Shown in pieces: positions 2,220 through 47,393 of a stretch of DNA of 64,000 bases. Position 1 is the stretch's first letter; each line of letters begins with the position of its first letter. The DNA lies in contig NZ_JABUXV010000007.1 of the NCBI RefSeq assembly GCF_014897705.1, positions 124,001 through 188,000 of the forward strand, given 5' to 3'. Below the pieces are notes generated by a model. The model made no database searches. It was not told the origin of the DNA and saw only the letters and a program-made list of their open reading frames with translations. This DNA is from Brachybacterium sp. FME24 (GTDB taxonomy: Bacteria > Actinomycetota > Actinomycetes > Actinomycetales > Dermabacteraceae). A program made the position numbers and the translations under genes.

Positions 2220-3590
<1,371 letters not shown>

Positions 3591-44125: not shown

Positions 44126-44856
44126 ACGAGACAGGGAGCGAGGACCGCCGGGTGCGGGTGCTGCTGGTGGACGACGAGGCGCTGATGCGTGCCGGTCTCC
44201 GGCTGATGATCGACGGCGCCCACGGGATCGAGGTGATCGGTGACGCGGCAGACGGTCAGGCCGCGCTCGAACAGATCCACGAGCTCACTCCCGACGTGGT
44301 CCTGATGGACATCCGCATGCCCCGCATGACCGGTCTCGAAGCGCTGCAGGCACTGCGCGAGACGGGCTGCGAGGCGCGAGTGATCATGCTGACCGCCTTC
44401 GACACGGACGAGTTCCTGCTGCAGGCGCTGCGCGCCGGGGCAGTGTCGTTCCTGCTCAAGGACTCCCCGCCGGAGGAGGTCGTCCAGGCCGTGCTCGAGG
44501 CGGCCGGGGACCGCCCCCGCTTCTCCCCCGACGTGCTCACCCGCCTGGTGCGGCTCGCATCGGCCGACGGCACGGACCCGTCCGGCGCAGTGACCGGACG
44601 CGGAGCGTCAGGCGGGGAGAAGGCCGGGGAGGGACCTGGGGCGTCGACGACCGCTTCCCCGACCCCCGCGGGGATCACCGAGCGCGAGTGGGAGGTGGGC
44701 CGTCTGGTGGCCCGGGGCCTCGCGAACCCGGAGATCGGCGAGAAGCTGTTCATGAGCGTCGCGACGGTGAAGACCCACCTGGGCAGGCTGTACCACAAGC
44801 TGCAGGTCACCAATCGGGTCCAGCTCGCGATCCGGGTGCTCGAGCTGGGCGGCTGA
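44110..44856 (+). CDS. Response regulator, NarL/LuxR-type
   Basis: A 248-residue DNA-binding regulator. The receiver domain has VLLVDDEALMRAGL at the N-terminus and the phospho-Asp in DVVLMDIRMPRM. A Gly/Ala-rich linker of about 35 residues is longer than usual, then the LuxR helix-turn-helix (ITEREWEVGRLVARGLANPEIGEKL...VKTHLGRLYHKLQV). It overlaps the kinase stop: the ATG at 44110 or the one at 44119 could start it, and the latter forms an overlapping ATGGTGA. The gene just downstream (leader and exporter) may be a target, but its own leader suggests other control. Confidence 0.93.
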   Translation: MDAMVNETGSEDRRVRVLLVDDEALMRAGLRLMIDGAHGIEVIGDAADGQAALEQIHELTPDVVLMDIRMPRMTGLEALQALRETGCEARVIMLTAFDTDEFLLQALRAGAVSFLLKDSPPEEVVQAVLEAAGDRPRFSPDVLTRLVRLASADGTDPSGAVTGRGASGGEKAGEGPGASTTASPTPAGITEREWEVGRLVARGLANPEIGEKLFMSVATVKTHLGRLYHKLQVTNRVQLAIRVLELGG

Positions 44857-44954
44857 GCACGCGCCGACGATCCGATTGCTCCCGACATCCCGCGCGACGA
44901 CCCGCGTGCGTCAGCGCATACGTCTGCGCCGGGCAGCCCGACGGTGCCCTCTGA

Positions 44955-44960
44955 TAGCGT
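44955..44960 (+). promoter_or_regulatory. Extended -10 box before the leader ORF
   Basis: TGA-TAGCGT, an extended -10 (TGn) element, followed by 7 nt and the ATG of the 18-codon leader. The transcript would begin at the leader start codon. Confidence 0.55.
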
Positions 44961-44967
44961 TTCGGGC

Positions 44968-45024
44968 ATGTCAGCCGCATCATGCTCGGCCGCTTGCGCG
45001 GCAGTGACCAGGACGACCCGCTAG
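44968..45024 (+). CDS. 18-residue leader peptide, probably leaderless
   Basis: ATG to TAG encoding MSAASCSAACAAVTRTTR. The sequence is Ala/Ser/Cys-rich with a basic end (R-T-T-R). It sits directly after a -10 box and in front of structured RNA leading to the DHA2 exporter. Leader peptides in this position control resistance genes by ribosome stalling in other bacteria. The identity of the inducing compound is unknown. Confidence 0.55.
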   Translation: MSAASCSAACAAVTRTTR

Positions 45025-45131
45025 CGGCGGGCGTTCCGAGTCACAGAACCACTCACCTGGAACGTACTGCCGCTTCGTGATCACTCCGGAGCGGCGCTTC
45101 CATGCTGCTCAGACGCACTACTGAGCGGAGC
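45024..45131 (+). promoter_or_regulatory. Structured 5' leader with mutually exclusive hairpins
   Basis: Hairpin A pairs GCGGC 45024-45028 with GCCGC 45069-45073 and CGTTCC 45032-45037 with GGAACG 45059-45064. Hairpin B pairs GCCGCT 45069-45074 with AGCGGC 45090-45095 and shares bases with A. Hairpin C pairs GCTCAG 45107-45112 with CTGAGC 45121-45126, and its extension GCT/AGC occludes the GGAG (45127-45130) of the exporter. Hairpin A begins at the leader stop codon, so a ribosome halted there would disrupt it and favour B. Pairing seen in the sequence; the switch mechanism is inferred. Confidence 0.6.
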
Positions 45132-45136
45132 ACTTG

Positions 45137-46549
45137 ATGCTTTCAGACATTCTTTCCTCACGCGGGCAGAGCCCGTCTTCGACACGCGCATGGCTGGTGC
45201 TGTGCTCGATGTCGATGCTGCAGTTCTTCATCGCAGTCGACGTGACCGTGGTCAACATCGCGCTGCCGTCGATCGGCGCCGATTTCGACGTCGCCGGGCA
45301 CGCCCTGACCTGGGTCGTCGTCGGCTACACCATCACCGGCGGTGGCCTGCTGATGCTCGGCGGTCGCCTGAGCGATCTGTTCGGTCGCCGTCGTGTGCTG
45401 CTGGCGGGTGCCACCTTGTTCGGTGCCGCGTCCCTGCTGGCGGGGCTGGCCCCCTCGTTCCTCGTTCTCGTGCTGGCGCGACTCCTGCAGGGCGTCGGCG
45501 AGGCCATCGCCCTGCCGGCCGCGATGGCCACCATCGTGATGATGTTCCCCGAGGGACCGCTCAGGTCACGGGCGTTGAGCGTGTGGGCCGCGGTCGCCAG
45601 CTGCGGGCTGGTGCTCGGCTTCGTCCTGTCGGGCATCATCACCGCGCACCTGGGCTGGCGGTGGGTCTTCCTGATCTCGGTGCCGTTCATCCTCATCGTG
45701 ATCGTGGCGTCCCTTCTCCTCGTGCGGGCCGACCGGCCCGTGGCGCGTGGAACCGCTCCGCTGGACCTGCCGGGGGCGCTGCTGCTGACCGCCTGCCCGC
45801 TGGCGTTCACCTACGGCGTGGTACAAGTCGGCGAGCCCGGCGCGAATCTTGTGGTGAGCGCGGCGGCGCTGGCTGCTGCAGTCCTGGCTGGTGTCGGTTT
45901 CGTGCGTGTCGAAGCGCGCTCTCCTCACCCGCTGGTGCCGCTGAGCTTCTTCGCTGATCGGGCACGGGTCGCCGCGAACCTGGCCACGATGCTGCTCAGC
46001 GGGGCGCTGTCGACCTCATTCCTGCTGTTCACGTTCTACCTGCAGGACGTCCTCGGGATCGGCCCGTTGGGGGCGGGACTGACGATGCTGCCGCTTGCCG
46101 TCTCGCTGGTGATGGCGTCACTGCTGGTGCCTCGATTGCTCAGCAGATGGGGAGCTCGCATCTGTGTACTGGCCGGTCTCGGCCTCGCGGCAGCCGCGAT
46201 GGCCACGATCGCGCTGGTCGCCGCCCTCGGGGCCGGGTCGCTGTGGCTCCTCCCGGCGATGGTGCTGATCGCTGCTGCGATGGGCTTCGGGCTGGTCGGC
46301 CTGCAGTACATAGCCGTCAGCGGCGCGACGGAGAAGGACGCGGGCATCGCCTCAGGAGTCCAACGAGCGGCTGATCAGCTCGGCGGCGCCAGCGGGGTAG
46401 CGATCTACGTCGGGATCGGGTTCGCCCCGGCCGTGCACTTCGCGGACCCGTTCCTGATCGCCACCGTGCTCGCAGTCGCCGGCCTGATCATCGGTGCCGT
46501 GGTCATTCATCGCGCACCGGTTGCGAAACTGTCCGAACCCGCCGCGTGA
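45137..46549 (+). CDS. DHA2-family MFS exporter with leader control
   Basis: A 470-residue, 14-helix exporter close to the LfrA/EmrB/Pur8-type actinobacterial pumps. The first helix reads FIAVDVTVVNIALPS and motif A is GGRLSDLFGRRR; motif C is GLVLGFVLSG. The start is the ATG at 45137 (a TTG sits just before it), with GGAG 6 nt upstream, partly within a predicted stem. It is the only exporter in this window behind an upstream peptide and structured RNA, and probably responds to a translation inhibitor. A 10-bp perfect stem follows the stop. Confidence 0.92.
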   Translation: MLSDILSSRGQSPSSTRAWLVLCSMSMLQFFIAVDVTVVNIALPSIGADFDVAGHALTWVVVGYTITGGGLLMLGGRLSDLFGRRRVLLAGATLFGAASLLAGLAPSFLVLVLARLLQGVGEAIALPAAMATIVMMFPEGPLRSRALSVWAAVASCGLVLGFVLSGIITAHLGWRWVFLISVPFILIVIVASLLLVRADRPVARGTAPLDLPGALLLTACPLAFTYGVVQVGEPGANLVVSAAALAAAVLAGVGFVRVEARSPHPLVPLSFFADRARVAANLATMLLSGALSTSFLLFTFYLQDVLGIGPLGAGLTMLPLAVSLVMASLLVPRLLSRWGARICVLAGLGLAAAAMATIALVAALGAGSLWLLPAMVLIAAAMGFGLVGLQYIAVSGATEKDAGIASGVQRAADQLGGASGVAIYVGIGFAPAVHFADPFLIATVLAVAGLIIGAVVIHRAPVAKLSEPAA

Positions 46550-46706: not shown

Positions 46707-47393
46707 GTGCTCGATGCTCTCGATGCCGAATCCACGCACCGCGACGCCGAGCATCTGCTCTGCGATTCCGGCTGGAGCTCATGCGGCGCTGGCGATTGGG
46801 CGGTCGCCTTCGCGGCCCCTGACGCCGACGTCGTCGCCCGGATCAGCCCCTTCGACCCCGTCGGGCCCTACACCGTTCGGCTCTACGACGAGGCGTCCAT
46901 GACGGGCCGGGTGCCTCGATTGCTGGCGCATCGGCGCCTGGCCGGGGGCGGTGATCTCCAGGTGATGGAGCGGCTCCTCCAGGTGCCGGAACCCGAGGCG
47001 ATGGACTTCCTGGCCCGGTTCGCGGAGCCCGAGCCGGAGCTCGCTGCCCTCGCCGAGACCGTGGCCCGCGTGCATGCCGATGCGCGGAGCGACCTTCCGT
47101 GGTGCGGGCCTCTGGACACGAACCCGTCGAACATCATGCGCACTCTCGCCGGGCAGCTCATCCTGACCGACCCGTACTACGCGGACGGCCGGGAGCTGTA
47201 CGCCACCGCCGAGCGCGAACCGGACCGCTTCACCCTGGTGATCCCCGAGGACCAGCGTCGCTACCTGACTGAGATCCCGCTCGCCTGGTCGGGCCCGTGG
47301 AGCCTCGAGGATCGCGCGGCACTGCGCACGTCGCTCCGACGCGCCGATAACCGCAGAACTCCTCGTCGAGGCCCGGTAGCCGCAGCCCCGTGA
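46707..47393 (+). CDS. Protein kinase/aminoglycoside-phosphotransferase-fold protein
   Basis: A 228-residue protein that looks like a reduced kinase-fold enzyme. The segment GPLDTNPSNIMRTLAGQLILTDPYY corresponds to the catalytic (D-x-N-P-x-N-x-M) and metal-binding DP segments of aminoglycoside phosphotransferase-like proteins; AVARISPF-type sequence precedes it. A typical P-loop is not obvious. The recorded start is GTG at 46707; a TATTCT box at 46670-46675 would place transcription 24 nt upstream and in frame, at an ATA codon. Actual substrate unknown; a role in resistance is only a possibility. Confidence 0.65.
   Translation: MLDALDAESTHRDAEHLLCDSGWSSCGAGDWAVAFAAPDADVVARISPFDPVGPYTVRLYDEASMTGRVPRLLAHRRLAGGGDLQVMERLLQVPEPEAMDFLARFAEPEPELAALAETVARVHADARSDLPWCGPLDTNPSNIMRTLAGQLILTDPYYADGRELYATAEREPDRFTLVIPEDQRRYLTEIPLAWSGPWSLEDRAALRTSLRRADNRRTPRRGPVAAAP

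Follow-up and report, generated by a model that had tools for sequence, protein, structure and literature searches.

A candidate drug-inducible translational attenuator with a probably leaderless sensor ORF upstream of an LmrA-like exporter gene in actinomycetes

We report that the gene for a DHA2-type exporter in Brachybacterium sp. FME24 is preceded by a conserved leader that quite probably acts as a ribosome-mediated, drug-induced translational attenuator, with a presumably leaderless upstream ORF (uORF) as its sensor. The leader lies in the window, by which we mean the entire 64,000-nucleotide stretch of DNA that was analysed. An earlier note on the same DNA had proposed antibiotic-induced translation attenuation; this proposal is partly supported, by a conserved uORF, coding selection, covariation in the OFF stems and a modelled helix flip, although the folding model gave no clear release of the exporter Shine-Dalgarno (SD) sequence.

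Layout of the leader and start of the uORF

On the + strand of the window, TAGCGT (44955-44960) is followed after 7 nt by the ATG (44968) of an 18-codon uORF (MSAASCSAACAAVTRTTR*, 44968..45024) ending with TAG at 45022-45024, confirming the positions that the earlier note gave for a -10 box and an 18-codon ORF. The uORF stop is separated by 112 nt from the exporter ATG at 45137. The leader segments, likewise on the + strand, have overlapping choices of partner. Segment 0, the 5' part of the uORF (CATCATGCTC, 44978..44987), pairs with the exporter SD and start in the unmasked minimum-energy fold of the window leader. Segment 1 (GGACGACCCGC, 45011..45021), which comprises uORF codons 15-18, pairs in the OFF state with segment 2 (CGGCGGGCGTTCC, 45025..45037), whose ON partner is segment 3 (GGAACGTACTGCCGCTTCGTG, 45059..45079). 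Segment 3 can instead pair with segment 4 (CCGGAGCGGC, 45086..45095) or with the SD arm, segment 4 with 3 or 5, and segment 5 (TGCTGCTCAG, 45103..45112) with 4 or the SD arm. The SD arm, segment 6 (45121..45132), includes the exporter SD, GGAG at 45127-45130, which is invariant in 48/48 aligned leaders. The earlier note had drawn three hairpins, with the uORF stop codon as the first pair of the first one. The leader does have the potential for alternative pairing, but the options are more numerous (1:2, 2:3, 3:4, 3:6, 4:5, 5:6 and uORF 5' part with SD), and the stop codon actually lies in the 1:2 loop, its U contributing at most an innermost U-G pair.

The exporter itself (45137..46549, + strand, 470 aa) is an LmrA-like member of the DHA2 group of MFS proteins. 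Its best curated model was LmrA (NF000031) at 471.3 bits, with the next model at 190 and a match to MFS_1 at 177.7 bits; since the NF000031 cut-off is 850 bits, its profile scores make it a relative of LmrA that falls outside the family as delimited by that model. An ORF upstream of the leader ends at 44856 and by eye resembles a response regulator, and a small ORF downstream of the exporter (46707-47393) looks by eye to be of phosphotransferase type. Scanning both strands, we found a single instance in the window of a TAnnnT-N7-ATG ORF of 12-25 codons. A leader covariance model scored 134.4 bits at the leader and 11.8 bits at its next match, in agreement with the earlier observation that other DHA2 exporters in the window lack this arrangement. 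Rfam covariance models gave 0 matches at gathering thresholds across the window, and 0 at E up to 1 between 44900 and 45200.

The TAGCGT hexamer is part of an extended -10 element (CTGATAGCGT, 44951..44960, + strand) of the form TGn plus TAnnnT, as defined by column conservation among 49 distinct leaders. T-13, A-12 and T-8 occurred in 49/49 of these, a count to be read with the fact that leader detection required TAnnnT, while G-15 occurred in 48, T-16 in 43 and C-1 in 47. Detection allowed gaps of 4-9 nt, yet 42/42 loci gave 7. No column between -60 and -21 reached 80% conservation in the distinct leaders, and a scan for a sigma-70 type -35/-10 pair found none at the window leader. Because TAnnnT stands 7 nt ahead of the ATG, the uORF is probably leaderless, with transcription starting at or very near the A of its start codon.

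Conservation of the uORF and distribution of the leader

The uORF together with TAnnnT-N7-ATG was present in 56/56 ortholog loci on chromosomes or contigs among the best matches listed, which span several actinomycete orders. These loci comprise 42 named and 14 unnamed ones, and dropping 7 duplicate leaders left the 49 distinct leaders. The named orthologs came from a contig scan in which the best 80 places were kept, so that their real number is at least that found: at least 41 orthologs at 64-81% identity plus one partial match (L092). Hosts among the matches listed include Streptomyces, Nocardia, Nocardiopsis, Micromonospora, Nonomuraea, Pseudonocardia and Brevibacterium. All 42 named loci encode a uORF of 17-18 codons with an AVTRxxR-like end, and the leader is shared by 14/14 loci from genome searches; at one of these, L032, the uORF stop is lost and the frame reads on to 23 codons. 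At that locus (1223-1461) the hairpin of the lost stop is retained and the leader is lengthened to 239 nt. The stop lies within a hairpin in every distinct leader except one. Homologues at 39% identity or less are a different matter, no leader being found in the 33 named and 4 unnamed (L015-L018) loci scanned; the 33 were counted from 37 distant named loci, L085, L097, L098 and L101 being left out since their match did not start near base 3001.

To judge by its substitution pattern, the uORF evolves as a protein and is under protein-level selection: pN/pS for codons 2-14 of 39 distinct 18-codon uORFs was 0.17 in frame versus 2.63 and 3.13 in the other frames. Five of the 48 leaders in the alignment lack exactly one codon. 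A11, A12 and V13 were found in 43/43 18-codon uORFs, and departures from AVTR are AVTW (L063, L069), AVN (L027, L074, L028), AVI (L013) and AVTK (L070, L071). The earlier note had pointed to an RTTR end; the C-terminal end is indeed conserved, but mostly as RTSR, RTTR being a minority form. It had also named the absence of a conserved frame or stems among orthologs as evidence against its proposal. That comparison was run and came out in the proposal's favour: 56/56 loci keep the uORF and the -10 spacing, the frame is under protein-level selection, and the OFF stems described below hold more doubly changed pairs than shuffles do.

The nucleotide sequence of the uORF appears to be constrained as well. 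Third-position variation was 0.045 in codons 15-18, which form segment 1, versus 0.229. At codon 4, GCT accounted for 30/41 Ala codons, versus 52/252 at the other Ala codons of the uORFs and 6% of those in exporter genes. This bias at codons 4-5 suggests a second layer of RNA constraint within the uORF. In the alignment of 48 leaders (A4), the GCT-favoured codons 4-5 match an anti-SD string found again in segment 3. A hairpin internal to the uORF (GCCGC-TTGC-GCGGC) was rejected as a conserved helix, given that one of its five pairs forms in 27/48 leaders and no compensating change was seen.

Distribution within the genus is patchy. The close exporter was carried by 6/38 genomes, the window included (the other five at 77-83% identity), and the leader was present in exactly those 6. 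Over the order, the exporter was detected at E up to 1e-90 in 12/396 sampled genomes; one of the order-level genomes (G225) has two exporter copies (L026, L033), both with the leader. The window exporter is 81% identical to Nonomuraea and Actinomadura copies versus 77-79% to four of the five genus copies, which points to acquisition by horizontal transfer. For four of the five other genus members that carry the exporter, similarity at the DNA level starts at 44966-44968. A covariance model of the region from the uORF to 3:4 (R1), built from 28 of 48 leaders, matched 14/394 sampled genomes of the class, in a scan whose stricter filters lose weak matches. The 10 strong matches (88-139 bits) all precede this exporter, and the four weak ones (L131-L134, 23-30 bits) were rejected as leaders since no uORF was found at them. 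A possible second copy in the window's own genome (L025, E 4.8e-4) was attributed to chance, as it lies at the end of an unrelated ORF. Throughout the material sampled, the leader is tied to one exporter family.

The exporter also occurs in 16 plasmid records at 58-77% identity. We examined 8 of these, counted apart from the 56 loci; five keep the full uORF, three of them in Gram-negatives, and the remaining three, enterobacterial, have lost the uORF start or the leader. Streptomyces (L117) and Rhodococcus (L116) plasmid copies carry the leader. Brevundimonas pBH3a (L115), Klebsiella p13294-KPC (L118) and Enterobacter IMT49658 (L120) have a divergent leader and exporter (58-60% identity) with a 22-codon uORF (MISLDSESAAAAAASAVTRTLR*) whose stop falls in the same hairpin. 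The Klebsiella and Enterobacter copies lie between IS26 elements and have TAGTTT 7 nt ahead of the uORF and TTGACA a further 17 nt upstream; the Brevundimonas copy has CAGCTT in place of TAGTTT. The Enterobacter copy has armA and blaTEM-1 nearby. Behind ISVsa3, the copies of E. coli CVM N56338 and Salmonella 34514 retain just the part of the leader that starts inside the uORF, and about segment 6 alone remains of it on the E. coli S56 IncQ1 plasmid. The LmrA-like exporters with 5'-truncated or deleted leaders on these E. coli and Salmonella plasmids are L113 (2832-4401), L119 and L114 (3034-4374), for which no resistance gene prediction appeared among the entries listed. In the gene tables of the eight plasmid records, which are incomplete, the leader is not annotated, and the L120 and L113 cassettes gave 0 megablast matches in the E. 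coli complete-genome set. To judge by the enterobacterial copies that lack the uORF start or the leader, the exporter can be separated from its switch in the course of transfer.

Alternative pairing and access to the exporter SD

We analysed pairing in A4, from which L032 was left out because of its 239-nt leader and lost stop. Helices 1:2, 3:4 and 5:6 together were paired in 92.5% of cells. The earlier note had proposed a covariation check of its own stems; these three OFF stems together covary more than shuffles do, with 8 doubly changed pairs versus 3.5 +/- 1.4 in shuffles (0/500 as high), a count to be set beside a sliding control in which shifted versions paired in 37-49% of cells and two of them (pairing 37-40%) contained 7-8 doubly changed pairs, with 15 and 18 doubly changed cells versus 11. 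Helix 1:2, at 95.3% of cells paired, includes 4 pairs changed on both sides, so in the alignment this stem carries compensatory changes. The competing pairings 2:3 and 4:5 together were paired in 91.8% of cells (2:3 alone in 92.0%), and their covariation in the 48 leaders was not above shuffles. Each helix of 1:2, 3:4, 2:3 and 4:5 was paired in 91-97% of cells. Pairing 3:6 was found in 97.6%, with hardly any variation, and the fold favoured by RNAalifold has 1:2 together with 4:5, the latter enclosed by 3:6, in which segment 3 covers the SD.

Folding of the unmasked leaders gave mean probabilities of 0.82 for 1:2, 0.59 for 3:4, 0.10 for 2:3 and 0.31 for 4:5, with 3:6 and 5:6 minor (0.06 and 0.23). 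Blocking the bases up to column 54 brought 1:2 to 0 and raised 2:3 to 0.83 (above 0.5 in 43/48) and 4:5 to 0.66 (35/48); when segment 2 was covered as well, 2:3 fell to 0 and 3:4 returned to 0.60. An additional masking scan covered 24 of the 48 leaders. A ribosome footprint spans about 30 nt, the value used in the model. With one such footprint, 2:3 peaked at 0.77-0.80 for P-site codons 12-14 across the 48 leaders, versus 0.31 at codon 11, 0.60 at codon 15 and 0 at codon 18. In the folding model, a ribosome at codons 12-14, covering segment 1, flips 1:2/3:4 to 2:3/4:5. L115 and L118 flip likewise, their masked minimum-energy folds forming 14 pairs in 2:3.

Access to the exporter SD followed a different course. 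On naked RNA, its mean unpaired probability was 0.07 (48 leaders), and it paired with the uORF at a mean of 0.72 (above 0.5 in 35/48 leaders, 0.71 in the window), mainly through GCUUCGU-like codons 4-6 with ACGGAGC. Single footprints at codons 11-18 left mean SD access at 0.06-0.09 (0.07-0.09 at codons 12-14), because the SD is then captured by the uORF 5' part (0.41-0.63). With footprints at codons 2-9 access was 0.17-0.23, and 0.33-0.49 in the window, with 2:3 absent. When the uORF was blocked entirely, through its last sense codon, as two queued ribosomes would do, access rose to 0.28 versus 0.07 unmasked; with segment 2 shuffled it was 0.22, the native value being higher in 35/48 leaders (p 0.007). 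In the window leader, the same block gave 0.076 versus 0.067 unmasked and 0.249 with shuffled segment 2; the SD stays closed there because CUCCG beside segment 4 re-pairs with it. For the plasmid leaders of Brevundimonas and Klebsiella, masking gave a minimum-energy fold whose last 14 bases, from GGAC, are single-stranded; ensemble SD access rose from 0.03-0.05 to 0.28 when masked, versus 0.12-0.13 with segment 2 covered. Shuffled segment 2 equalled the native one in 8 and 10/200 cases for these two leaders, and in 2 and 3/200 for L070 and L071. Taken together, the folding model supports the helix flip and leaves SD release unproven.

Proposed mechanism, alternatives and relation to known systems

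We propose that the transcript would begin at the A of the uORF ATG or very close to it. Without drug, the uORF 5' part would hide the exporter SD on naked RNA, and segments 3 or 5 would hide it (3:6, 5:6) once the uORF is occupied or cleared. A drug would then arrest a ribosome on the uORF, in our preferred reading at codons 12-14, the conserved A-V-T; by covering segment 1, the arrested ribosome would let segment 2 capture 3 and segment 4 capture 5. Since a leaderless start would keep loading, a second, queued ribosome would cover the uORF 5' part and open the SD, and the exporter so made would remove the drug. Conservation, coding selection, the potential for pairing and, within the model, the change from 1:2 to 2:3 and 4:5 are shown here; we infer that the transcript is leaderless, that a drug arrests the ribosome, which drug this is and at which codon, that a second ribosome queues, and how far the SD opens. 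In its most specific form, which we offer tentatively as falling somewhat short of an even chance, an undescribed arrest peptide (core AAVTRxxR-stop) would act from a leaderless start; a leading ribosome, arrested by a context-dependent elongation inhibitor other than the lincosamides that gave the exporter family its name, and a second one loaded on the bare 5' end would jointly unmask the exporter. Such a two-ribosome sensor would have moved between phyla, its leaderless promoter geometry being retained in Gram-negative IS26 copies.

Where on the uORF the ribosome would stop, and for which drug, is the point at which a variant of this explanation, compatible with translational attenuation, deserves serious if guarded consideration, although we lean against it. 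It places the arrest early, at codons 1-9, with the uORF 5' part as the main anti-SD and a lincosamide-type drug as inducer. The strong SD:uORF pairing on naked RNA, the early footprints, which give the widest opening of the SD and do so most markedly in the window, and the GCT bias at codon 4, which would fit a GCUUCG retained for its role in RNA pairing, all speak for it. So does LmrA as by far the best model of the exporter, since LmrA exports lincomycin according to the available text of PMC8546547, as does the stalling of lincosamide-type drugs at the start codon described in the accessible part of PMC12421871. More broadly, pleuromutilins, lincosamides and streptogramins A depend little on context, exert their effect shortly after initiation and have very short uORFs as their sensors (PMC10201436 and PMC12421871, as far as available). 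Such lincosamide-type uORFs have 3-9 codons in the accessible portions of these two papers, however, versus 17-18 here; the exact GCTTCG string occurs in just 24/49 uORFs, the uORF 5' part differs in L115 and L118, and an early arrest leaves the conserved codons 8-18 and stems 1:2 and 2:3 unexplained. Chloramphenicol and linezolid arrest best with penultimate Ala, then Ser or Thr (PMC8987054, available text); A12 before V13 fits that context, although residues of this kind are frequent in the uORF. Lincosamides are suggested by the exporter family and by the early footprints, whereas the conserved codons 8-18 and stems 1:2/2:3 point to a later arrest.

The same sensor might act through premature termination of transcription instead of SD sequestration, an outcome that we judge unlikely. 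The weak computed SD release and the premature terminator used by actinomycete lmrC (PMC8546547, available text) would favour it, but we found no intrinsic terminator in the window leader, T-runs after the 3:4 stem are of 4 or fewer in 48/48 leaders (which bears on intrinsic terminators, not Rho), and the SD and start sit within conserved pairing segments. A response of the uORF to the supply of amino acids such as cysteine, and not to a drug, seems very improbable to us. The uORF is short and probably leaderless, and the window peptide has two Cys; these are replaceable, however (C6 in 38/43, C10 in 40/43) and absent from L070, L071, L115 and L118, and the downstream gene is an exporter. The Cys codon run of leaderless cysteine attenuators is not found here. 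Finally, short ORFs and hairpins are common in G+C-rich DNA, but a chance ORF with hairpins in a G+C-rich intergenic region is contradicted by the conservation, coding selection, OFF-stem covariation and single instance in the window, and we give it practically no credence.

Drug-induced translational attenuation, the reading we prefer, has well-known relatives. Erm-type translational attenuators combine a short uORF, a drug-stalled ribosome, 1:2 and 3:4 helices that re-pair as 2:3, and a hidden resistance-gene SD. The window leader shares the short uORF, the re-pairing and the hidden SD, and drug stalling is here proposed. It differs in that its uORF is probably leaderless with an extended -10, its gene encodes an exporter and not a methylase, the uORF stop lies inside the first hairpin, and there are extra segments (0, 5, 6) and a peptide ending in AVTRxxR. 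In mycobacteria, polycysteine leaderless uORFs with a run of Cys codons serve as cysteine attenuators. The mycobacterial leaderless short ORFs described in the available part of PMC4633059 are likewise leaderless short ORFs of an actinomycete; here there is no Cys run, the downstream gene is another one, and there are re-pairing segments. The attenuators of lmrC in S. lincolnensis and of are5sc/tiaA in S. coelicolor likewise control resistance genes of actinomycetes by way of the ribosome, as is proposed here; the genes themselves are of another kind, and in the accessible texts of PMC8546547 and PMC12421871 they differ in being ABC-F genes with terminators, and the are5sc/tiaA uORFs have 3-9 codons, their own ribosome binding sites and a start-codon stall (PMC12421871), versus 17-18 codons in the present leader. 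The lincomycin exporter LmrA represents the curated family closest to the window exporter, which differs by scoring under the family cut-off, and lmrA itself is GlnR-regulated (PMC8546547/PMC12421871, parts available).

The earlier note had called the sensor possibly undescribed. Among the papers listed in searches of the open-access PMC literature, whose coverage mostly excludes subscription papers, we found no description of this leader, but the mechanism class has the ABC-F precedents just cited (PMC8546547, PMC12421871, available parts). We regard the proposed switch as ordinary in its logic and unusual in its build, with a probably leaderless sensor uORF, a conserved peptide and mobility. 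If our interpretation is true, a resistance switch with a leaderless sensor ORF would have spread widely but patchily in actinomycetes, and its peptide would be a new candidate arrest peptide, readable against drug context rules.
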